DNA of 51,514 nucleotides from an uncultured Clostridia bacterium (GTDB taxonomy: Bacteria > Bacillota > Clostridia > TANB77 > CAG-508): NCBI GenBank assembly GCA_944388795.1, contig CALXKD010000009.1:1-51514 (forward strand), read 5' to 3'. The notes beneath the pieces were generated by a model, which was given only the letters and a program-made list of their open reading frames with translations, did no database searches and was not told the DNA's origin. Below are positions 130-13,504 of this stretch, in pieces. How positions within the stretch are numbered: the first letter of the stretch is position 1; every line of letters starts with the position of its first letter. The position numbers and the translations under genes were made by a program.

Positions 130-3100
130 CTATCCAATTGTTGGGTCTACATTAATTTCTATTGTAATATCTCCAGTAATTCCTTTAATTCCTTGAGCTC
201 TCGCAAATTCTCTAATATTAATCGTCTTTCCTACGGCATCATAATAATTTGTAAATTCATTCCATGATAATTCAAATCTAGTATTTGTATCTTCATTAGG
301 AATTGTTATAATAACATTTTGTACATATCTTGAATCCACATCAAATCCTGTATCTTTTAGTACTAAATAACCATTTTGTGTTGTTATCGTTTCATTGAAT
401 TCTGACAATATTTCTGATATTTCTTCAAAATATTCTGTTAAATCACCAATATTATTTGCTGAAGTAGAAAGTGGTGCTCCGTTTTCATCTTTACTTGCCA
501 TATTTTGCAATTTTTGTATATATGTTTGATTATCTCTTCCTATTGATAATGAAACTGTATATAATATTGCTTTATCATCTTTTAATTCATCAGCTCTTTT
601 TGCTGCTTCATTAATTCCATTACTATCATTAATTACTTGACCATGTTCTATAGATCTATTTGCTTCACCATCTGTCATTAATATTACTTGTGCACCTTTT
701 TCTTTTCCTTTAAGTATATTTTGTGCATGTATTAATCCATCCTCAATATTGGTTCCTGATGCTAATTTAGTTCCTGTATTATAAACTTTTAAGTTATCAA
801 CATCATCTCTTTCATTCCATGGAACACTATTGAACTGTGTACTCGTTAAAACATTTGCATAAGAATTTTTTGCAGCACTTATACTTGTAGTATTATCTAC
901 TAATATTTGTGCAGTTTCATTATATCCGATAATTGTTACTGTATTTTGGTTATCTTTGCCACCCATATATGTGTTTAAGAATGTATCTAGTGCTTGTTTT
1001 AACGCATACCATCTAGTTGTTCCATAAGAAGAAGCCATTGGGTCAGAATTACCATCATAATCTACTGCTTCTGCCATACTTAATGATAGGTCAATGACAA
1101 TTACTGTATTTTGTGGTTTTACTAATTTTTTGTTTACTGTAATTGATGCTTCTACATCATTTTCTGTATAAGTATTGTCTTCTCCATCTAGTGCATTTTC
1201 AACTGTATCTCCTGGTAATAGTTTACCAACTTCAACTGTAAAGGTTATTGTTACAACTTCTCCTGATTTAACTTCTGATAGAGGATATCCTCCAGCTAAG
1301 TCCCCTACGCTTATTTTTGATGAACTTCCAAGAGTTGATGAAACATTGATACATTTTGCATCATAGCTATCATTTTTACTTAAAGCATTTCCGTTTTCAT
1401 CTACCATAACTACTTTTTCAGCATCAATATTTGCTTTTAATTGTGAATCTTTTACTACTGTTTCTCCACTTATATTTCCAGTATTTTCAACTGTAATAGT
1501 ATATTCGATTCTGTCTCCTGTAGTTATAATATGATCTCCTTCAGTATTTCCAATATCCTTGCTTGTTTTACTTTGAACAATATTAGCTGCTTTATATTTT
1601 TCTAATATATCATTGTCATCTCGTTTTTCTGTTTCATTTGTGTCAATATATGCTGTATTAATTACTTTATCTCCGTTTTCACCTTCTAGTATTACATCAT
1701 CAGGAACTGTATATGTAACTGTAATTACATATGTTTCTCCTACTGCTAATGTGTCTTTACCTAATAGATTATCCTTATTGCCTTTTAGGTTTGTTGGCGT
1801 TCTAGTTCCATCTGCATTAACTTTTTCAACTTTAACAAATCTTACATCATGATCATCTGTTACTGTTACTCCTGTTAAGTCTCTGTTTCCAGCATTTGCA
1901 ACAGTGATTTCATAAGTAATTTTATCATTTTTCTTTAACTTAACATCTTCTGCATTTTGTATTTCTGTACCATTTACTTTTACTGATGTTTTATCAATTG
2001 TTGCTACTTTTCTTGGTTGTACTGGAACCTGTTCATTATCTTCTTCATTAATTGGTTGTTCTTCATCCTTTGGTGTTGCTTCTACTTTAGCTGTATTTTC
2101 AATATTCTCTACATTGTTTACATTTTTAACTTCATACTCAACAATAATTTTGAAGCTTTCTTGTGGTTCTAATGTTTTTGTAATGTCTTGTGATAATAGT
2201 TGTAATAAATCATTTCCTGCTTGTATTGTTGCCTCTCCTTCTGGTGTTACTTCACCAATCATTTCATTGTCTGCATTATATTTTATAATTTTTACAACTT
2301 TTACATCAAAATTATTATCTTTAATTTGTACATTATTTAATGTAATATTTCCTGTATTTGTTGCTGTTATTTCATATTTAATCACATCTCCAACATTTGC
2401 TATAAATGTCTTTACATGATTATCTCCATCTTTTACAACCTTTACGAACTCATCTGTTCCTACTGCTTTTATATGTGTTGCTGATTTATCAATCGTAACA
2501 TCTGGATTATCTTTTATTGGTGTTTTTTCATCATCTGGATCTGATGTTACATCGTCATTTGTTGCTGTTACAACATTTACCAATTCTGTCTTATCTTTTA
2601 CATCATCTGTCGTTACTTCATATTTTACAGTTATTGTTGTTGTTGCTCCTGGTGCTAATGTTCCTATATTTAAATCTCCAGTTACTTCTAAGCTTTCTTC
2701 TACTCTGACATTTTCTAATGTTTTATTTCCTGTATTCGTTACTGTTATTGTATATGTAATTTCGTCTCCAACAACAACTTCTGTTTGAGCTGTTATAGGT
2801 GCTCCATTTACCATAGTTGCTGTTTTCTTTACTGATAATCCTTTTTCTTCTTCTACTGGTGTTTTCTCATCGTCTGGGTTTGATGTTACATCATCGTTTG
2901 TTGCTGTTACAACATTTACTAATTCTGCCTTATCTTTTATGTCATCTAGTTTTACTGTATATTCTACTGTGATTGTCTTACTTTCTCCTGCTGCTAATGT
3001 TCCTATATTTAAATCTCCAGCTACTTCTAAGCTTTCTTCTACTCTGACATTTTCTAATGTTTTGTTTCCTGTATTTGTTACTGTTATTGTGTATGTAATT

Positions 3101-5469
3101 TTATCTCCAGTATTTACTTTTGTGTCAGCTGTTACAGCTTCTCCATTTACCATGGTTGCTGTCTTTTCTACTGATAAGCCTTTTTCTTCCTCTACTGGTG
3201 TTTTCTCATCATCTGGGTCTGATGTTACATCATCGTTTGTTGCTGTTACAACATTTACTAATTCTGCCTTATCTTTTATGTCATCTAGTTTTACTGTATA
3301 TTCTACTGTAATTGTCTTACTTTCTCCTGCTGCTAATGTTCCTATATTTAAATCTCCAGCTACTTCTAAACCTTCTTCTACTCTGACATTTTCTAATGTT
3401 TTATTTCCTGTATTTGTTACTGTTATTGTGTATGTAATTTTATCTCCAGTATTTACTTTTGTATCAGCTGTTACAGCTTCTCCATTTACCATTGTTGCTG
3501 TCTTTTCTACTGATAAACCTTTTTCTTCCTCTACTGGTGTTTTCTCATCATCTGGGTCTGATGTTACATCATCATTTGTTGCTGTTACAACATTTACTAA
3601 TTCTGTCTTATCTTTTATATCATCTAATTTTACAGTATATTCTACTGTAATTGTCTTACTTGCTCCTGGTGTTAATGTTCCTATATTTAAATCTCCAGTT
3701 ACTTCTAAGCTTTCTTCTACTCTGACATTTTCTATTGTTCTATTTCCTGTATTCGTTACAGTTATTGTGTATGTAATTTTATCTCCAGTATTTACTTTTG
3801 TATCAGCTGTTATAGCTTCATTATTTACTTTGGTTGCTGTTTTTTCTACTGACAATCCTTTAACCTCTTCAACAGGTGTATTTGTTGTAGAATCCTTTTC
3901 TTCTCCATCATAACTAGCTATAGCCGTATTTATGATTTGTGGGTTTTTCTCAATATTTTCTACATCTTTATCTGTTACTAGATATCTTGTTCTAATAACT
4001 TCTTTCTCTTCTAATGATTCTAAGTTAATTCCTGTTAATGTTATGTTTAATTTTTCATCTCTTACTGTCAATCCTTCAATTTTAGCTGTTCCTTCATTTT
4101 TCACATAAACTACATATTCAATTTCATCTCCAGCTTGTGCTTTTCCGTCCTTATTCTCAGTATTTTCTATTAATGTTGCTTCTTTTCTTATAGAAAAATC
4201 TGTTGACTCAACTTCTACTGGATTTGTTGGTTCTTCACCTATTGTTGCTACATTTTCTAAAGTAATATCTGTTCTTTTTACTTTTACTGTGAATTCTATT
4301 TTTGCTTCCTTATTTACATTTACATTTATTCCGCTTACTAAATCTTTAAGCTCCACATTTCTTGTTTCATCATCTTCATAAACTTTTACACCACTAACAA
4401 ATTCTACTGCTCCATTATTTAACATGTCTTCTATGTTTGTATCTTTTACAACTGTACTTCCTGCTACATCACCAGTATTTGTAATTGTTATTGTATATGT
4501 AATTTCATCATCCAATTTTGCTGGTGCTTGAACATTTTCTCCAGCTCTGGTTATTTTCGCTGTTTTACTTGTTGTAATAATTGCTGTTTCTGTTGGATTG
4601 CTTTCTTCTCCATTAGCAATGGCAACATTTCTAATTTTTCCTGTTGCATTTTCATCAACTGTTACTGTAAAGTTTACTGATGTTGTTGAATTTGCTTCAA
4701 TATCTACCATCCATCTTAAAGATGTTACAGCCGTTTCATTTTTGAATTCTTCTGCATTTGGTGTACTAGATACATATGTTGTATTGGTTGGTATTGTATC
4801 TGTCACATAAATTCTTTCTATTTTCTCATTAGTATTATTGGTTACTTCAATAGTATATCTAATCTCTTCTCCAGCTTGAACTAAATTATTTCCTGATTTT
4901 GTTGTAGCTGTTTTATTTACTGTAATATCAGGTGTTTGTACGCCTTCTATATTTGTATATGCACTAGCAAATGAAGCTTGTAATTCTCTTGGTGTCCAAA
5001 TTTTATCTTCACCCTCTGCTACTAATTGGTCTGGATATACAACTGTTTCTTCTCTTGAAATGGTTGTTTCTTGAATGTTGTCAGTTGTCGTAGTTGTTCC
5101 TCCTGTTGTTCCAGTAGCACCACCTGTTGTTCCTGTTCCAGCAATACCTTGGTTAGCACCAGCTGTTGTTGTATCAGCATTTGCTGTTTCAGTTGACTCA
5201 GTTGTTGCTGCTTCTGTTCCTTCTGTTGCTTGTTCCTCAGCACTTTGTGTTGCTGGTTCTCCTGATTGTTCTTGTGTATCAGTTGTTGTTTGTTCTTCTT
5301 GTGTGGTTCCTGTTGTTTGTTCATTGTAGCTTGCTAAATCTGTAGCTTCTGCAGTACCTCTATTCTTTAAGAAGGCTACAGTACCTACAATAGCTGCAAT
5401 TACTAATACGGCTATAATAATAATTGCTACTAATGTTTTCTTGTCTGGCACTTTTAACTTTCCTGCCAT
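130..5469 (-). CDS. Giant DUF11-repeat surface protein with C-terminal VWA domain
   Basis: A 1779-residue protein. Residues about 13-34 form one hydrophobic segment (signal anchor), followed by a Thr/Glu/Gln-rich linker to about residue 150. About ten DUF11-type beta-sandwich repeats follow, each with the GD-ITYTITVTNTGN signature. Residues about 1450-1650 form a von Willebrand factor A domain with an intact MIDAS motif (DLSLS), GTNI and MTDGE. Four consecutive repeats (about residues 532-983) are exactly 113 residues long and near-identical. There is no C-terminal LPXTG motif, so it is probably held in the membrane by the N-terminal helix rather than by the neighbouring sortase. It is last in an operon after the LPXTG protein and sortase. 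A GGGAGG ribosome site precedes the start. The likely role is adhesion or extracellular scaffolding with metal-dependent ligand binding. The ligand cannot be inferred. Confidence 0.9.
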   Translation of the reverse strand: MAGKLKVPDKKTLVAIIIIAVLVIAAIVGTVAFLKNRGTAEATDLASYNEQTTGTTQEEQTTTDTQEQSGEPATQSAEEQATEGTEAATTESTETANADTTTAGANQGIAGTGTTGGATGTTGGTTTTTDNIQETTISREETVVYPDQLVAEGEDKIWTPRELQASFASAYTNIEGVQTPDITVNKTATTKSGNNLVQAGEEIRYTIEVTNNTNEKIERIYVTDTIPTNTTYVSSTPNAEEFKNETAVTSLRWMVDIEANSTTSVNFTVTVDENATGKIRNVAIANGEESNPTETAIITTSKTAKITRAGENVQAPAKLDDEITYTITITNTGDVAGSTVVKDTNIEDMLNNGAVEFVSGVKVYEDDETRNVELKDLVSGINVNVNKEAKIEFTVKVKRTDITLENVATIGEEPTNPVEVESTDFSIRKEATLIENTENKDGKAQAGDEIEYVVYVKNEGTAKIEGLTVRDEKLNITLTGINLESLEEKEVIRTRYLVTDKDVENIEKNPQIINTAIASYDGEEKDSTTNTPVEEVKGLSVEKTATKVNNEAITADTKVNTGDKITYTITVTNTGNRTIENVRVEESLEVTGDLNIGTLTPGASKTITVEYTVKLDDIKDKTELVNVVTATNDDVTSDPDDEKTPVEEEKGLSVEKTATMVNGEAVTADTKVNTGDKITYTITVTNTGNKTLENVRVEEGLEVAGDLNIGTLAAGESKTITVEYTVKLDDIKDKAELVNVVTATNDDVTSDPDDEKTPVEEEKGLSVEKTATMVNGEAVTADTKVNTGDKITYTITVTNTGNKTLENVRVEESLEVAGDLNIGTLAAGESKTITVEYTVKLDDIKDKAELVNVVTATNDDVTSNPDDEKTPVEEEKGLSVKKTATMVNGAPITAQTEVVVGDEITYTITVTNTGNKTLENVRVEESLEVTGDLNIGTLAPGATTTITVKYEVTTDDVKDKTELVNVVTATNDDVTSDPDDEKTPIKDNPDVTIDKSATHIKAVGTDEFVKVVKDGDNHVKTFIANVGDVIKYEITATNTGNITLNNVQIKDNNFDVKVVKIIKYNADNEMIGEVTPEGEATIQAGNDLLQLLSQDITKTLEPQESFKIIVEYEVKNVNNVENIENTAKVEATPKDEEQPINEEDNEQVPVQPRKVATIDKTSVKVNGTEIQNAEDVKLKKNDKITYEITVANAGNRDLTGVTVTDDHDVRFVKVEKVNADGTRTPTNLKGNKDNLLGKDTLAVGETYVITVTYTVPDDVILEGENGDKVINTAYIDTNETEKRDDNDILEKYKAANIVQSKTSKDIGNTEGDHIITTGDRIEYTITVENTGNISGETVVKDSQLKANIDAEKVVMVDENGNALSKNDSYDAKCINVSSTLGSSSKISVGDLAGGYPLSEVKSGEVVTITFTVEVGKLLPGDTVENALDGEDNTYTENDVEASITVNKKLVKPQNTVIVIDLSLSMAEAVDYDGNSDPMASSYGTTRWYALKQALDTFLNTYMGGKDNQNTVTIIGYNETAQILVDNTTSISAAKNSYANVLTSTQFNSVPWNERDDVDNLKVYNTGTKLASGTNIEDGLIHAQNILKGKEKGAQVILMTDGEANRSIEHGQVINDSNGINEAAKRADELKDDKAILYTVSLSIGRDNQTYIQKLQNMASKDENGAPLSTSANNIGDLTEYFEEISEILSEFNETITTQNGYLVLKDTGFDVDSRYVQNVIITIPNEDTNTRFELSWNEFTNYYDAVGKTINIREFARAQGIKGITGDITIEINVDPTIG
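2519..3874 (-). repeat. Four in-frame tandem repeats of 339 bp within the DUF11 gene
   Basis: The phrase encoding the KTP segment recurs at 2519, 2858, 3197, 3536 and 3875, an exact spacing of 339 bp (113 codons) each time. The units at 2858-3196 and 3197-3535 are nearly identical at DNA level. The outer units are more diverged. This points to recent unequal recombination, or gene conversion, inside the gene. Confidence 0.9.
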
Positions 5470-5484
5470 CTTAATTCCTCCCTT

Positions 5485-6072
5485 TTATATAATTTGTTTT
5501 GCTTTTAGTATTAATCGTTCTCTGTTTCCGTTTGTGCATGTGATTAGCGTTACTTCTCTTATTGTTTCATCATTTGTGGCTAAAATACTAACATCATTTG
5601 GATCTGTAACAAATATATCGTAAATCTCATATTGCATTGTAGTTTGCGTTAAATCTGTTAGTTCTACAACATCTCCGATTTCTAGATTTTTTGTTTTTCC
5701 AAACATCGTTCCATTGTAGTTATTATGTCCTGCAATTGATAAATTCCCATAATCATTTACATTTCCTCCCCAGTATTTTACAATGCCATATCTCATTGGT
5801 TCTTTTGTTTCTTCTGGGTTTGAAGTTTCTATTGCTAGTATTGGATATTGAATATCAATTTTAGGAATCGTCACAACCCCTATGACATCATATCCTTTTA
5901 ATTGTACTGTTCCACTATCTTGTATTTCTATATTTGAAAAAGTTTCAAGTACTTCTTGATTTTCTTTTTCATTTTCCATGCTCTTCCATTGTTTTACTCC
6001 AATTAATGTAATTAAAACAATGGCACCTAATAACAATATGATAAATATAACTCTATAAATTTTTAGTTTCAT
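5485..6072 (-). CDS. Sortase family cysteine transpeptidase
   Basis: A 195-residue sortase. An N-terminal membrane helix (about residues 7-26) is followed by the sortase beta-barrel. Catalytic residues visible are His116 in AGHNNY, Cys179 in TLITC, and an arginine at 184 or 186 in GNRER. The TLxTC motif and size fit the class D-like sortases of Firmicutes. It would cleave an LPXTG-type signal and attach the substrate to peptidoglycan outside the membrane. The start codon overlaps the stop of the upstream LPITG protein by one base (TAATG), so the two are translationally coupled, and that protein is the obvious substrate. The surface VWA protein follows 15 bp downstream. Confidence 0.93.
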   Translation of the reverse strand: MKLKIYRVIFIILLLGAIVLITLIGVKQWKSMENEKENQEVLETFSNIEIQDSGTVQLKGYDVIGVVTIPKIDIQYPILAIETSNPEETKEPMRYGIVKYWGGNVNDYGNLSIAGHNNYNGTMFGKTKNLEIGDVVELTDLTQTTMQYEIYDIFVTDPNDVSILATNDETIREVTLITCTNGNRERLILKAKQII

Positions 6073-8361: not shown

Positions 8362-8512
8362 TTCTATCCCCCTATTTCGTTTACTTTTTTGAAAATAGTA
8401 TTTCTTACTTTTGTGTATTATATTCAAAAGTTTCTTTTTTGGATACTACAAAAATCTGATAACGTTTTATATAACTAAATGATATCTCAAACAAATATAT
8501 TAATTGATTTTC

Positions 8513-8541
8513 TTGACATTTTTATATCTTAGTAATATAAT
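8513..8541 (+). promoter_or_regulatory. Perfect sigma-A promoter of a small RNA
   Basis: TTGACA at 8513-8518 and TATAAT at 8536-8541, separated by exactly 17 bp. Both hexamers match consensus. No protein start follows on this strand; instead a structured, terminated RNA does. Confidence 0.85.
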
Positions 8542-8547
8542 ATTTAT

Positions 8548-8740
8548 CGTTCTCAAGCAGTAATATCTGTTTGTAACATCATCACCCATTGGATGAAAAG
8601 GATTTTACCCAATTCTATAGTAGTCCACTGGCTTGATGCATTTGCTGTCATCTTAGTAACTATTAACTCTCGGAGGAGTTTCACCTGTTTTAATTCTTTA
8701 GATGACAGCTTTAGAGCGATACTAGTAGTATCGCTCTATT
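8548..8740 (+). ncRNA. Orphan structured small RNA, about 190 nt, family not recognised
   Basis: The transcript should start near 8548, just past a consensus promoter, and end at the hairpin at 8713-8737. Seen: a 5' domain closed by TCAAGCAG (about 8553-8560) pairing with CTGGCTTGA (near 8630); a second domain closed by GCTGTCATCT (about 8643) pairing with AGATGACAGC (about 8700), containing a GGAGGAG-rich loop; then a 10-bp terminator stem (8713-8722 with 8728-8737). No credible reading frame runs through it, and both flanking genes lie on the minus strand, so it is not a leader. Size, strong promoter and terminator resemble 6S RNA or other abundant Clostridial RNAs such as raiA. The multi-hairpin layout does not look like the single long 6S rod. 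Family unproven. Confidence 0.7.
8713..8740 (+). terminator. Terminator of the small RNA
   Basis: Stem AGAGCGATAC/GTATCGCTCT (8713-8722 with 8728-8737), loop TAGTA, followed by ATTATTAT. The T-run is weak but the stem is perfect. It separates the RNA from the convergent U32 peptidase gene. Confidence 0.6.
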
Positions 8741-8762
8741 ATTATACAAAAAAACTCCTGTT

Positions 8763-9992
8763 TTATTTTTCTCTTCTAATAATCCAATCCTTTTCACATT
8801 TGATTGGTAATTTCATGAATACCTTTTGCCCTTTTACACCTGGACTAACAGCTTGTATTTCTTCTTTGGTATCATAATCCCATAAGTTATCAATTGTAAA
8901 TTGTACAGGTTCTAATTGATATGGAATTAGAATTTCCATTTTATCTCCCACTTGAAGTTTATTTTTTATCTCAATAACAGATTTTTCTTCATCATATTCT
9001 ACTACTTTTCCACCAAATTCATATTTTTCGTTATATTGTCTTCCACCATATTCTTGTATATCTTTATTGTTTCTATCATTAAAATAAAAAGTAGTTAAGC
9101 CTCTCGTTTTCACTTTTTCCAATTCTTTTAAATATTTCGTATAATCATAATGTTCCGGGTCTTTTTCATAATCATCAATAGCATTTCTATAAGCACCTAT
9201 GACACTTGCTAAATAATATTCTGTTTTTAATCTTCCTTCTATTTTTAAGCTGTCTACACCCATATCAATGATTTCTGGTAGTTCTTTAATTAAGCATAAA
9301 TCTTTTGAAGAAAAAATACTTGTTCCATATTCACTGGTTTCAATCGGCATGAATTCTCCTGGATTATTTTTTTCTTCTGCATATAAATTATATGACCATC
9401 TACAACTTTGTGCACAATCTCCCAAATTTGCACTTCTACATGACATAAAATCACTTAAAAAACATCTTCCTGAAAATGCAAAACAAATTGCACCATGGAT
9501 AAATATTTCAATCTCCATCCCTTCTGGTTTGTTTTCCATGATGTATTTCAATTGCTCTTTATTCATTTCTCTTGCCATAATCATTCTTTTAGCTCCATTA
9601 TGGTACCAAAAGTTTGCAGCATGTAAACTTACAATATTGGCTTGTGTACTTACATTAATTGCTACACTTGGTGCATATTGTTTTAATACCTCAATAACAC
9701 CTCCATCTGCAGCAATAATTCCATCTGGATTTAATACCTCTAATTTCTTTGCCATTTCTATGATTTCTTCATATTTTTCATCCCATGCAAAAATATTTAA
9801 GGTAACATACACTTTTTTTCCAATACTATGTGCATATTTAATTGTTTTTTCTAAATCATCATCTTTCATATCTGCTCTTGTCCTTAATGATAATGATGAT
9901 GTTCCACAATATACCGCATCCGCTCCATACAAAAAGGCAATTTTTGCTTTTTCATAAGAACCTGCTGGTGCTAACAATTCTACTTTTTTCAT
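8763..9992 (-). CDS. trhP: U32 family peptidase, TrhP-like tRNA U34 hydroxylation protein
   Basis: A 409-residue member of the U32 collagenase-like family. Seen: N-terminal ELLAPAGS, GADAVYCG, the family signature with clustered cysteines CRSANLGDCAQSCRW (iron-sulfur ligand candidates), and a C-terminal beta domain. Bacterial homologues (TrhP, YrrN/YrrO) use prephenate-dependent chemistry to make 5-hydroxyuridine at tRNA position 34. The assignment is strengthened by a TrmR-like methyltransferase 2.2 kb away, the next enzyme in that pathway; in Bacillus subtilis the two are neighbours (yrrMNO). Two tandem perfect sigma-A promoters drive the gene. It starts at an ATG behind an AAGGAAGGA ribosome site. 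Confidence 0.87.
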   Translation of the reverse strand: MKKVELLAPAGSYEKAKIAFLYGADAVYCGTSSLSLRTRADMKDDDLEKTIKYAHSIGKKVYVTLNIFAWDEKYEEIIEMAKKLEVLNPDGIIAADGGVIEVLKQYAPSVAINVSTQANIVSLHAANFWYHNGAKRMIMAREMNKEQLKYIMENKPEGMEIEIFIHGAICFAFSGRCFLSDFMSCRSANLGDCAQSCRWSYNLYAEEKNNPGEFMPIETSEYGTSIFSSKDLCLIKELPEIIDMGVDSLKIEGRLKTEYYLASVIGAYRNAIDDYEKDPEHYDYTKYLKELEKVKTRGLTTFYFNDRNNKDIQEYGGRQYNEKYEFGGKVVEYDEEKSVIEIKNKLQVGDKMEILIPYQLEPVQFTIDNLWDYDTKEEIQAVSPGVKGQKVFMKLPIKCEKDWIIRREK

Positions 9993-10050
9993 ATATATCC
10001 TTCCTTACTTTTTTCTTTATCTTATTTACGTTCTTATTTTTTGCATTAAT

Positions 10051-10107
10051 ATTATACAATTCTCACTTGTTTATGTCAATTATACAATTCTCACTTGTTT
10101 ATGTCAA
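10051..10107 (-). promoter_or_regulatory. Tandemly duplicated perfect sigma-A promoter
   Basis: On the minus strand, TTGACA (10107-10102) and TATAAT (10084-10079) form one promoter. TTGACA (10079-10074) and TATAAT (10056-10051) form a second. Each spacer is exactly 17 bp. The -10 of the first and the -35 of the second share one base (TATAATTGACA). Both point at the U32 peptidase gene. Confidence 0.85.
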
Positions 10108-10108
10108 T
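10053..10108. repeat. Two tandem copies of a 28-bp unit
   Basis: Bases 10053-10080 and 10081-10108 are identical, directly adjacent 28-bp units. Each unit carries one set of promoter elements, so the duplication doubled the trhP promoter. Confidence 0.92.
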
Positions 10109-10233
10109 TATAAAATGCATCTTATTCTTCAAGTATAGAATGTTTCACAAATATTAATAAAAAATTAAAAAGGATTCTTTGAAAAGAATAGAAAAATCAT
10201 CAAAAAATACACTTACTAGCTATCTGTTTTTAT

Positions 10234-10436
10234 TTCTTTGAGTTAGATACTCTAGGAAAGAAATTATAATGAGAAACACTTGTCATTTAAAGATTATTTC
10301 CTTTTTATAAATCATTTATTATCTCAAAATATTTTTTTACTTTTTCTGCGTAATTTCTTTTATTCTTATTGCTATTCTTTATTTTTTTTGATACACTTAT
10401 TTTTGAAAAGGCACTTAGAGTATCTAACTCAAAGAA
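10234..10436. repeat. 21-bp perfect inverted repeats, each with an internal dyad, upstream of the RSH-like gene
   Basis: The arm at 10234-10254 is the exact reverse complement of 10416-10436. Each arm contains GAGT-N5-ACTC, itself a dyad. The 161 bp between them are T-rich and hold no convincing gene. They could be two operator sites for a looping repressor, or the ends of a small non-autonomous element. The remaining sequence of this 517-bp gap (9993-10509) is AT-rich, apart from the trhP promoters. Confidence 0.75.
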
Positions 10437-10509
10437 TTATTCAAGTAAAAAGATACACTAAAAAATCAATGTGAAATAAAAGAATAAATAATATAAAGGA
10501 GCTTGTATT

Positions 10510-12186
10510 ATGGAAATTCCAAAAATTGAAAAAGATTTTATAACATGGTGTAATTATATCCATCCAGATATCAATCCCTATATCTTTTTTCGAAGACATA
10601 CGAGATATTTTGATGAGTATTCTCCATTTTTAGAAGAACTAATGGTTAATCTTCACCAAGAGCTTTGTAATAAATTACCTAATATAAACTTTTCTTTTAA
10701 AGGTAGAATAAAATCTAAAAGAAGTTTCTTAATTAAATCCTTTAGAACCTTGGCAGAAAGTATTGAAAAACTTTTTCCTGATCAGTATCCTGCTGATCAA
10801 AGCGAACTAAAAATATTACAAGAAAAAAGAAGTAAGAATATTGAAAAATATTTCAAATTTTTATTAAAAGATACTCCTCCAAAAATAGAAAGATATCTTA
10901 AAATAAAAAACATGATTGAAAATACTTCACAAGAAAAAGGAACTCTTAAGGGTTTTAGAGATTTATTTGAACAATTAAGCCCTGACGAAAAAGAAAATCT
11001 TGTCATTCGATTAGGTAGAACTGAAGATACATTTGCCAATCGTATTATTGTCAATGATGTTGATTTTAATATTCAATCTATTAGAAGTAATGCTGATGGA
11101 CAATTCGAAATTTTAGATGAGAAGGGAACTATTATTCCTATTTCTTCCTCTATTCAAATTCCATCTGATAAAATTATATTAAATGAACACGATGGTAACC
11201 GATATGCTATCATTGATGATAGCCCAAAAAAGATTTCTGACCATCATTTATTATATGAAACTGACCTAACCGCTAGCAAAAGAACTTTTGAAAATGCTTC
11301 TAAAACTTCTGATGGAAAAATCACTTTATTCCAAGATTTGCTTGTGATTAATGATGAAGAACAATTTAATATTGTATCTACTTTTACAGATTCAGCTACT
11401 GGAGACATTATGGCGACTATACATCGCTCTAGAGAATCTAATAACAGTCAATACTGTGAAAGTGATTCAAATGTTATCAATTTAAGTAAACTATTATGTA
11501 ATGGAATTCCAATCAAATTAAAAAAATTTGATAAACTATATACAGAAAAAGCGCTTTATGATATTCGAGATGCCATGTACCAATATTATGACGAAATCGG
11601 TGTAACAAGGATTTGGACACGCTCCAAAGATTATGTACAATCTCCTAAAAAAGATTCAAAATACCAATCATTACATGATTCATATTTTTACGAATCCATT
11701 GGATATTGTTTAGAAACACAAATACGAGATCTAGAAATGGAAAAAGACTGTGAAAATAAACCAGCTTCTAATTCTACTGATTCCCCTTTAATAACTAGTC
11801 ATGATACTTATAAAAAGGATAAAATGAAAAAATGGTTAAAAAATCCTATATTATGTCATATACTAGAAAAAGATCCAGAAGCGTTTGACTCTTCCACTGA
11901 AATATTAGAAAAGCTTTTATATAATCCTAATGTAGCATTACCTGATTTATTAGGAAAATATATTATGACTGCTAAAGTTGCAAATAATAAGGTAGAGCCT
12001 TTTACTCCAAAGATTCCTCAAACTTTTGAACATACTTTTCAAAATCCTAAAGCATACACACCATCTCCTCAAGATTCTCTACCACCTTTAGATTTTTCTA
12101 GTTATGAACATTTTATGCATTCCAGAAAAATTCGTAATGATGCTAGAAGTAAAGGTAACTATAATATTGACTTTGATTATATTTAA
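10510..12186 (+). CDS. Divergent RelA/SpoT-type alarmone synthetase-like protein with two large insertions
   Basis: 558 residues. The (p)ppGpp synthetase signature can be traced in order: GRIK (R66, K68) with K76 eight residues on, EDTFANRII (D173), SKDYVQSPK (373-380), KYQSLHDS (Y385, H389) and LETQIRD (E402). These match the nucleotide-binding Arg/Lys, catalytic Asp, guanine-stacking Tyr and catalytic Glu of Rel/SAS enzymes. Spacing is abnormal: R66 to D173 is 107 residues (about 23 in Rel) and D173 to Y385 is 212 (about 44), so there is a charged helical insertion and a larger, apparently beta-rich one. There is no HD hydrolase, TGS or ACT domain. The C-terminal 150 residues are polar and unrecognised. 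AAAGGAG lies 8 bp before the ATG. It is a plus-strand gene set between trhP and trmR. It could make (p)ppGpp, pyrophosphorylate tRNA like toxSAS proteins, or have a new activity. Confidence 0.72.
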   Translation: MEIPKIEKDFITWCNYIHPDINPYIFFRRHTRYFDEYSPFLEELMVNLHQELCNKLPNINFSFKGRIKSKRSFLIKSFRTLAESIEKLFPDQYPADQSELKILQEKRSKNIEKYFKFLLKDTPPKIERYLKIKNMIENTSQEKGTLKGFRDLFEQLSPDEKENLVIRLGRTEDTFANRIIVNDVDFNIQSIRSNADGQFEILDEKGTIIPISSSIQIPSDKIILNEHDGNRYAIIDDSPKKISDHHLLYETDLTASKRTFENASKTSDGKITLFQDLLVINDEEQFNIVSTFTDSATGDIMATIHRSRESNNSQYCESDSNVINLSKLLCNGIPIKLKKFDKLYTEKALYDIRDAMYQYYDEIGVTRIWTRSKDYVQSPKKDSKYQSLHDSYFYESIGYCLETQIRDLEMEKDCENKPASNSTDSPLITSHDTYKKDKMKKWLKNPILCHILEKDPEAFDSSTEILEKLLYNPNVALPDLLGKYIMTAKVANNKVEPFTPKIPQTFEHTFQNPKAYTPSPQDSLPPLDFSSYEHFMHSRKIRNDARSKGNYNIDFDYI

Positions 12187-12191
12187 TTTTT

Positions 12192-12227
12192 TAAAAGAGG
12201 ATACACTTCAAAATGCATCCTCTTTTA
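12192..12227. terminator. Bidirectional intrinsic terminator
   Basis: AAAAGAGGAT (12193-12202) pairs with ATCCTCTTTT (12217-12226). A/T flanks on both sides give U-tracts in both directions. It separates the RSH-like gene (plus) from the convergent trmR-like gene (minus). Confidence 0.8.
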
Positions 12228-12232
12228 TATTT

Positions 12233-12835
12233 TTATTTAATTCTACTAACGGCTAACCCATCTCCTACTTCTAAGATTTCTGTTTCAAGATTTGGATTTT
12301 CACTAACCTCTTTTATATATTCTCTTAAGTTTCTAACAGCTGTTCTTTGTTTATGTTTATTATAATCACTCATCACATAACCTTTATATAAAATATTATC
12401 TGCAAAAATAATTCCATTCTTATTTATCATTCTTAAAGCCTCTTTTAAGAAAAATGGATATTTACCTTTAGCAGCATCTATAAATACCACATCATATTGA
12501 TTATTTAAAGTTGGTAAGATTTCTACTGCATCACCTTCATAAATACGTATTTTATCTTCTACCTCTGCTAATTTAATATTTATCTTTGCTTCTTTTACTC
12601 TTTCTTCTTCTCTTTCAATCGTATCTATGACACCATTTTCTGCTAAAAATTGTGTAAAGCATATTGCGGAATACCCAACTGCTGTTCCAATTTCTAATAT
12701 TCTATTAGGTTTGTTTTTACTCAAATATTTTTCAATGACCTCTAATGTTTCATCCATGATTATCGGTATATGTTCTTCTAATGCTTTTTGCTTTATTTTT
12801 TCTAATTCTATTGTATTCAATTCTATTTCCTCCAT
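12233..12835 (-). CDS. trmR: O-methyltransferase, TrmR-like (tRNA 5-hydroxyuridine methyltransferase)
   Basis: A 200-residue class I SAM-dependent methyltransferase of the caffeoyl-CoA O-methyltransferase type. Seen: SAM loop ILEIGTAVGYSA at about 46-57, acidic ribose-binding DTIEREEE, and the metal/catalytic strand VVFIDAAKG with a later FADNIL. Bacterial members such as B. subtilis TrmR (YrrM) convert tRNA ho5U34 to mo5U34. The nearby TrhP-like U32 peptidase supports that substrate. Start choice is uncertain: the ATG at 12835 has a poor ribosome site, while the GGAGG inside its first codons could serve a TTG five codons on. The downstream neighbour is the terminator shared with the RSH-like gene. 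Confidence 0.82.
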   Translation of the reverse strand: MEEIELNTIELEKIKQKALEEHIPIIMDETLEVIEKYLSKNKPNRILEIGTAVGYSAICFTQFLAENGVIDTIEREEERVKEAKINIKLAEVEDKIRIYEGDAVEILPTLNNQYDVVFIDAAKGKYPFFLKEALRMINKNGIIFADNILYKGYVMSDYNKHKQRTAVRNLREYIKEVSENPNLETEILEVGDGLAVSRIK

Positions 12836-12917
12836 ATCCTCTCATCATCCATTTTTTTATTTTTATAAGATTTTCTATTTATTTTTTAAGAACTGTCAAG
12901 ATGACAGTTCTTCCTTT

Positions 12918-13493
12918 TTATTGTTTATTTTTAGGGTATAACTTAAATAATTTATCATTTAATTTTTGATAAATCGGTACCATTTTGGATTCATTGGTCA
13001 CCTCTGTTGCTTTATCAATATCTATCCATTTTACACCACTATTCTCATCTTCCTTTGTTTTTAATGGTTCATTCTCATCGGTTTCAAATAAATAGCAATA
13101 ATCTAAATGTAAATGAGAAGGTACAAATTTTCCTCTTTTTATATGACTATCTACTGTTAAAATCTCTAAGCTATATATCCCATCACTTAATACTTTTAAG
13201 TGTTTTAAACCTGATTCTTCCTCAGCTTCTTTCAAAGCCACATGTAATAAATTATCATCTCCATCAGCATGTCCTCCTGTCCATGCCCAAGATTGATAAA
13301 TATTGTGATAAATCATTAACACCTTTGTTCTTTCTTTATTCACAATCCAGCTAGAAGCTGTAAAATGACACATTTTATTTTCTCTAGTGAGTACATCTGC
13401 AAATGTATTCATATATTCTAGTATCATTTCTTTGTCTACTTGTTCTTGCTCATTAAATGGTACAAAATTTTCTATTTGTTTTTGTAAATCCAT
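12918..13493 (-). CDS. NUDIX hydrolase
   Basis: A 191-residue protein with a NUDIX box at about residues 73-96 (GGHADGDD...ALKEAEEESG). It keeps the metal-binding EAEEE core but has Asp and Lys at two usually Glu/Arg positions. The N-terminal 40 residues are helical. Substrate cannot be predicted; a nucleoside diphosphate derivative is the family norm. It lies 11 bp downstream of a small unknown gene and in the same direction as typA, so the three probably share a transcript. Confidence 0.85.
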   Translation of the reverse strand: MDLQKQIENFVPFNEQEQVDKEMILEYMNTFADVLTRENKMCHFTASSWIVNKERTKVLMIYHNIYQSWAWTGGHADGDDNLLHVALKEAEEESGLKHLKVLSDGIYSLEILTVDSHIKRGKFVPSHLHLDYCYLFETDENEPLKTKEDENSGVKWIDIDKATEVTNESKMVPIYQKLNDKLFKLYPKNKQ

Positions 13494-13504
13494 TTCCTGT
13501 TCTC

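Follow-up and report, generated by a model that had tools for sequence, protein, structure and literature searches.

The 51,514-nucleotide stretch analysed here (the window: positions 1 to 51,514 of contig CALXKD010000009.1, from an uncultured Clostridia bacterium of the CAG-508 lineage, assembly GCA_944388795.1) carries a gene on its forward strand whose 558-residue product, the query, is well supported by profile comparisons as a member of the RelA/SpoT homolog (RSH) superfamily. The open reading frame is exact, with an ATG at 10510 and a stop codon ending at 12186, and it lies antisense between two reverse-strand genes predicted to act in tRNA modification, a TrmR-like O-methyltransferase of the COMT type and a TrhP-like protein of the U32 family. 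The RSH core of the protein is split by two insertions of roughly 70–85 and 157 residues, giving the following segments, whose identities refer to six orthologs:

10510..12186, forward strand: the RSH-superfamily gene, 558 residues (class B, the query type), from the open reading frame list and profile searches
10675..10779, forward strand: core segment 1, residues 56–90, GRIKSKRSFLIK, with R66, K68 and K76; 86–97% identical
10780..10989, forward strand: insertion 1, about residues 91–160, which the compact relatives found at this locus lack; 57–84% identical
10990..11067, forward strand: core segment 2, residues 161–186, RTEDTFANRIIV, with D173 and R178; 88–100% identical
11068..11538, forward strand: insertion 2, about residues 187–343, with borders from the alignment to Rel 8acu; residues 187–340 are 50–70% identical
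11539..11754, forward strand: core segment 3, residues 344–415, with a helix, RSKD (371–374), SPK, KYQSLH (Y385, H389) and LETQIRD (E402, Q404); residues 341–415 are 76–91% identical
11755..12183, forward strand: C-terminal extension, residues 416–558, with no Pfam or NCBIfam match; 67–82% identical

A prior interpretation of the DNA made without database searches (the sequence-only reading) had recognized R66, K68, K76, D173, Y385 and E402 in the order of the (p)ppGpp synthetase fold, and had named a profile search against Pfam RelA_SpoT (PF04607) as one of two checks that could overturn it, the other being a structure prediction. All six residues are present in the RSH synthetase order, and the Pfam model matches residues 354–415 (E 9.2e-6, 26.4 bits with hmmscan, just below the curated cut-off of 27; 27.5 bits in the whole-genome scan). 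The sole NCBIfam match is a weak one to a GTP-diphosphokinase (E 0.074), and a single-sequence search of the PDB has GTP pyrophosphokinases as its sole matches (E 0.85 and 0.87). A profile of class B (A2, 14 rows) retrieves PDB 8acu, a GTP pyrophosphokinase that we take to be B. subtilis Rel, at E 2.5e-8; eight PDB sequences fall at E < 1 with this profile, the top five being Rel-type synthetases and the other three of different kinds at E 0.37 or worse. In profile–profile comparisons the query class scores 75 against Rel, as opposed to 11–22 for 16 comparisons with reversed or unrelated controls. Further, in five divergent class B proteins including the query (24–32% identical save one pair at 61.7%, and one of them, from locus L050, shortened by stops), 13 columns of the active site were chosen by hand from RSH motifs. 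Of these, 11 are among the only 38 invariant of 380 columns (hypergeometric P 1.6e-10), the two that vary being R178 and Y385. The Pfam, PDB-profile, profile–profile and invariant-column results together argue that the resemblance is not due to chance.

The gaps of 107 and 212 residues that the sequence-only reading had pointed out depart from the canonical ~23 and 44, a spacing that is common in the superfamily but does not strictly define it; 23 and 44 are also the values counted by eye for the corresponding gaps in the Rel of a sister genome (L010). Insertion 1 separates K76 from D173, and insertion 2 sits, as positioned by the alignment to Rel, between the D-containing strand (173–186) and the next helix (from about 344). 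The AlphaFold model, built on the query plus four sequences 78–80% identical to it, has a predicted local distance difference test score of 38.5, too low to use, and insertion 1 looks helical only in that model. A test of insertion 2 for internal duplication scores about 21 against 7–13 for controls (E about 0.001–0.002), no more than a weak hint. The 16 compact proteins of class A (defined below), which occupy this locus in other species of the genus, align to the query at R66, K68, K76, D173, R178, Y375, K380, Y385, H389, E402 and Q404, the exceptions being R178 replaced by K in one protein, H389 by Q in two, Y375 by F in one and E402 by D in one. The R-to-K-to-K, D-to-R, Y-to-H and E-to-Q spacings are the same in both; that from PK to Y is off by one, that from Y to E is 16–22 versus 17, and the large gaps are 19–37 and 73–114 versus 107 and 212 in the query. 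The sequence-only reading was likewise borne out in that Pfam and NCBIfam give no HD, TGS or ACT match in the query and assign its long C-terminus to no known family. No described subfamily with this layout was met in the libraries searched, and no such layout or locus in the literature, that search being confined to open-licence PMC papers.

The gene is under purifying selection: the ratio of nonsynonymous to synonymous substitution rates (dN/dS) between the query and the six orthologs, 68–80% identical to it, is 0.146–0.251, with values in the same genomes of 0.030–0.087 for the COMT gene (six orthologs) and 0.011–0.047 for the U32 gene (five). The query and these orthologs retain every catalytic residue examined. 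Insertion 2 is the least conserved part in five of the six, insertion 1 being less conserved in the remaining one (L044), and the N-terminus is 65–80% identical.

The immediate surroundings of the gene comprise the following:

8763..9992, reverse strand: the U32-family, TrhP-like gene at the left edge of the cassette (334 bits to NCBIfam NF011996, short of the model's cut-off of 534)
10051..10107, reverse strand: a 28-bp tandem duplication with two perfect sigma-70-type promoter matches, pointing to the trhP-like gene
10231..10439, no strand assigned: an element resembling a miniature inverted-repeat transposable element (MITE-like), with 24-nt inverted ends, about 70 bp upstream of the query gene, from a repeat search
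12192..12227, no strand assigned: an inverted repeat (I8, 88% complementary) between the convergent query and COMT genes
12233..12835, reverse strand: the COMT-type O-methyltransferase gene, called TrmR-like from its operon context and marking the right edge of the cassette

No NCBIfam model scores the COMT gene above its cut-off, and it is named TrmR-like because of the B. subtilis gene order yrrM, yrrN, yrrO, which passages of one study describe as a single operon of trmR, trhP1 and trhP2 (PMC6599085). A TypA/BipA gene lies farther to the right in the NCBIfam scan. The inverted repeat is possibly a two-way terminator; a terminator scan found none there. Paired MITE-like ends at equal spacing occur at two other places of the genome (C18, C53) with two mismatches allowed, and sequence similar to the element is visible by eye upstream of the gene in three of the six orthologs; three orthologs have just 180–188 bp between the gene start and the trhP-like gene. 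The query cassette has no second gene, an upstream antitoxin or leader reading frame was sought with nothing convincing found, and an Rfam search over 8500–13500 gives a single match at chance level.

Comparison across the genus indicates that this position is held by several different kinds of RSH-superfamily genes. The sample comprises 58 genomes, many of them incomplete, of which 54 have the COMT gene; its 3' side was read in all 54, and three contigs end too early (loci L125, L137 and L145), leaving 51 assessable genomes. A convergent RSH-superfamily reading frame adjoins the COMT gene in 38 of these, viz., class A in 13, class B in four, class F in one, class C in 16, C plus D in three and A plus C in one, with two such frames at five of the 38 loci. 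The classes are single-linkage BLAST clusters, one of which (cluster 0) was divided by hand according to layout into A (compact, ~290–370 residues), B and F (~390 residues), while class C measures 516–766 residues (one member cut by a contig end). No RSH-superfamily frame adjoins the COMT gene in 11 of the 51, and two show another arrangement (L110, L149). Five of the 11 empty loci have the trmR-like gene immediately next to the trhP-like one, at a distance of 17–92 bp, and the other six have no U32 gene in the stretch examined. These two genes flank the query-type gene both in the window and at eight other class B loci (L040, L041, L044, L045, L046, L048, L050 and L052); at L042 an additional gene separates it from the U32 gene, and split or truncated class B relatives occur at L050, L051 and L052. 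At L152 (genome G078, 1683–5447) RSH genes flank the trhP-like gene, a compact one and, beyond U32, a class B gene broken into two frames that overlap; at L149 (2699–4405) there is a same-strand, 568-residue Rel-like protein with a synthetase motif that looks degenerate by eye. In other genera of the family, too, RSH-type frames adjoin the COMT gene. All 58 genomes searched in the genus have a RelA_SpoT match above cut-off, mostly in a Rel-sized frame of 650–780 residues (746 in the query's genome). Further weak RelA_SpoT matches fall off the locus in frames of about 205–218 residues (e.g., G009:C10, G075:C17, G016:C14).

The larger occupants are far more divergent. Pfam RelA_SpoT has no match in the four class C members scanned, and we assign this class to the RSH superfamily mainly because its profile scores 72.6 against class A (38–39 against Rel; controls 11–22) and because all four PDB sequences that it retrieves at E < 10 are RelA/SpoT-type synthetases (best E 0.029). 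In 13 class C rows, the R, the K, the last K and the E are invariant and the D nearly so; the last K lies at +13 from the R, not +10, and almost every row has Phe in place of the G-loop Tyr. The class C loci include L100, L102–L105, L108 and L109. The three class D proteins score 40 against class A, 66 against class C and 18–21 against Rel with hhalign (the last within the control range), with a Pfam E of 0.08, and are only tentatively placed in the superfamily. PDC-S33 of PADLOC, which we take from its name to be a candidate phage-defence family, scores two compact relatives at 5e-9 and 1e-9 and relatives of 673 and 389 residues at 8e-6 and 1e-4; it covers the RSH motif region in two compact relatives, P0002 and P0003, and a literature search found no paper under that name. 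The N-terminal half of the class A profile also touches FaRel2 structures (E 1e-4).

The cassette between the trmR-like and trhP-like genes has been repeatedly exchanged for other very divergent RSH-superfamily genes. On a host tree built from COMT and U32 (59 rows, being 64 loci less four unlabelled and one without COMT; 47 had U32), the occupants require 31 changes, the minimum being 9 and the mean of shuffled labels 37.4. The window falls in a clade of 12 (support 94, not starred), of which seven rows are class B and five class C. Between the window and the class C genomes L100 and L102–L105, the flanking DNA is 86–91% identical up to 10014–10029 and again from 12230–12240, and inside these borders there is no DNA match at E 1e-3, bar 22 bp at the border in one of these genomes. 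Such differently built RelA-like proteins at one spot could reflect an evolutionary arms race. The distribution of the query type is narrow: matches above 170 bits are limited to the window's genus, with 13 genomes among 287 searched in the order (class F and truncated or split forms counted), the window's own genome is the only one with it among 398 across the phylum, and a pattern scan of 84,980 species genomes, which reaches close kin only, yielded four close relatives. Class C was found in five of 391 genomes in the class and 21 of 243 in the family.

Most accounts of RSH enzymes treat them either as conserved proteins of the stringent response or as toxins that come with an antitoxin. Of the sequence-only reading, the synthetase core with two large insertions stands. 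That RSH genes replace one another at a fixed locus makes a conflict enzyme that evolves fast a likelier role than an unusual alarmone synthetase. We are highly confident that the query is an RSH protein which keeps the residues for pyrophosphate transfer, is under purifying selection and occupies an exchanged cassette. From this we infer its role in conflict, its triggering through the insertions and its acceptor: we propose, as a tentative reading that falls a little short of an even chance, that it is a self-contained, CapRel-like pyrophosphokinase in phage conflict with tRNA or a nucleotide as acceptor. In this scheme the inserted domains would hold the ATP-dependent enzyme in an inactive state until the fast-evolving insertion senses a cue, phage infection being the likeliest, and the active site is freed; the enzyme would then pyrophosphorylate a purine nucleotide or the 3'-CCA ends of tRNA, which would stop growth. 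We favour this reading because of the RSH homology, the intact catalytic set, the higher dN/dS of the gene compared with its COMT and U32 neighbours, the fast-changing insertion 2, the occupancy of 38 of 51 loci by different kinds, the 31 changes of occupant on the host tree, the clean swap between near relatives, the lack of a second cassette gene, the PDC-S33 and FaRel2 matches of the relatives, and the precedent of CapRel, which passages of its description present as triggered by a phage capsid protein and as pyrophosphorylating tRNA (PMC9712102).

The query shares features with several known systems. With the long RSHs Rel, RelA and SpoT, which include the best PDB sequence matches to its class, it has in equal order the R-x-K...K, the D with an R at +5, and the RxKD, PK, YQSLH and ExQIR motifs; it differs from them in having no HD, TGS or ACT match, in its two widened gaps, and in its own N- and C-terminal extensions. 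As in the small alarmone synthetases RelP and RelQ, there is a synthetase core and no hydrolase, whereas the query has 558 residues with two insertions and the small GTP pyrophosphokinase chains in the PDB have 209–255. The toxSAS enzymes FaRel2 and PhRel and CapRel likewise combine an RSH synthetase core with the lack of a hydrolase; unlike toxSAS modules, whose mark is an antitoxin gene in the same operon, the query has no candidate antitoxin frame beside it. Like CapRel, it would join toxin and sensor in one chain with an extra, faster-evolving region; its candidate sensor, however, lies inside the catalytic domain and not behind it, and its activity is a prediction.

Several observations weigh against a role in phage conflict. 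By eye, residues 416–558 contain no YXXY, the motif that goes with the C-terminal pseudo-zinc-finger of CapRel. PADLOC gives no match for the query or for the three larger class C or D proteins scanned. Only one of 200 shuffles needs as few changes on the host tree as observed, which argues that occupant type is partly inherited. The dN/dS values below 1 show no sign of positive selection, and apart from the MITE-like element no mobile or defence gene was recognized by eye among the reading frames of the window near the query. No relative was confirmed in phage records or plasmids, nor in viral contigs by pattern scans with the query, a 716-residue class C protein and a compact member, which reach close relatives only. 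The inhibiting or sensing role of the insertions is itself a proposal of this analysis. Finally, RSKD (371–374) is of the RXKD form, which along with EXDD marks long RSHs and is tied to them and to a preference for GTP in passages of a survey (PMC3153485).

This motif bears on the alternative that we take most seriously, though it seems unlikely, viz., a regulated alarmone synthetase with (p)ppGpp or (p)ppApp as its signal and insertions that sense a metabolite or stress, their rapid change being lineage-specific regulation. The full set of synthetase residues with the Rel-like RSKD, the Rel enzymes as nearest solved structures by sequence, the purifying selection and the failure to find mobile relatives all agree with it; however, the basal alarmone function appears to be covered already by Rel, given that every genome searched in the genus has a RelA_SpoT match above cut-off, and repeated replacement at one locus by very different genes is unusual for a housekeeping signal enzyme. 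An enzyme directed at tRNA that serves the wobble-uridine pathway of its TrmR- and TrhP-like neighbours, rather than defence, is improbable. Its place between these neighbours, seen in the window and at eight other class B loci, the RSH-type frames beside COMT in other genera, the B. subtilis operon, and the action of some RSHs on tRNA, as related in sections of one paper (PMC11782079), would suit such a partnership; yet the query gene looks inserted, because it is on the opposite strand and its neighbours lie 17–92 bp apart in five genomes that lack it, the pathway genes are conserved while the RSH occupant changes kind, and the extra gene before U32 at L042 and the class B pieces beyond U32 in G078 fit it poorly. 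We give a somewhat smaller chance to an RSH relative that is decaying or has lost catalysis and is retained as a scaffold. The split and truncated class B relatives point to this, along with the Phe that class C nearly always has for the G-loop Tyr, a substitution by which FaRel2 is impaired according to the same sections (PMC11782079); the query and its six close orthologs, however, keep all catalytic residues examined at a dN/dS of 0.15–0.25. Very improbable is an exported or interbacterial effector akin to the exported alarmone synthetases, diverse RSH proteins with extra domains that parts of a recent account place in many bacteria (PMC12691689): diversification would fit antagonism, but the query has no signal peptide visible by eye (no predictor was run), no Pfam secretion domain, no separate immunity gene in its cassette, and a fixed chromosomal locus. 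A chance motif resemblance, to which the Pfam hmmscan score slightly under cut-off might point, is scarcely credible in view of the residue alignment to the compact relatives, the profile–profile score, the PDB profile matches and the invariant columns.

Taking the conflict reading further, the variable locus that this one bacterial family has in its trmR–trhP neighbourhood might be a slot comparable to those of immune receptors. Its interchangeable, mostly single-gene cassettes would each encode a self-contained pyrophosphokinase of the RSH fold that carries sensor insertions of its own, and the 516–766-residue class unrecognized as RSH by the libraries tried would be among them; this we regard as speculative and somewhat less likely than not. 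At this one chromosomal slot a single catalytic core has been rebuilt again and again, with stretches inserted into the catalytic domain and one kind exchanged for another. Should the occupants be sensor–effector enzymes, the locus would offer a natural series for studying what RSH enzymes sense and modify, and the 516–766-residue class, if truly RSH, would extend the superfamily past Pfam detection in the members scanned. Elsewhere in the window, a 1779-residue surface-type protein with many near-identical repeats (130–6072, named by eye) adjoins a sortase-like gene.
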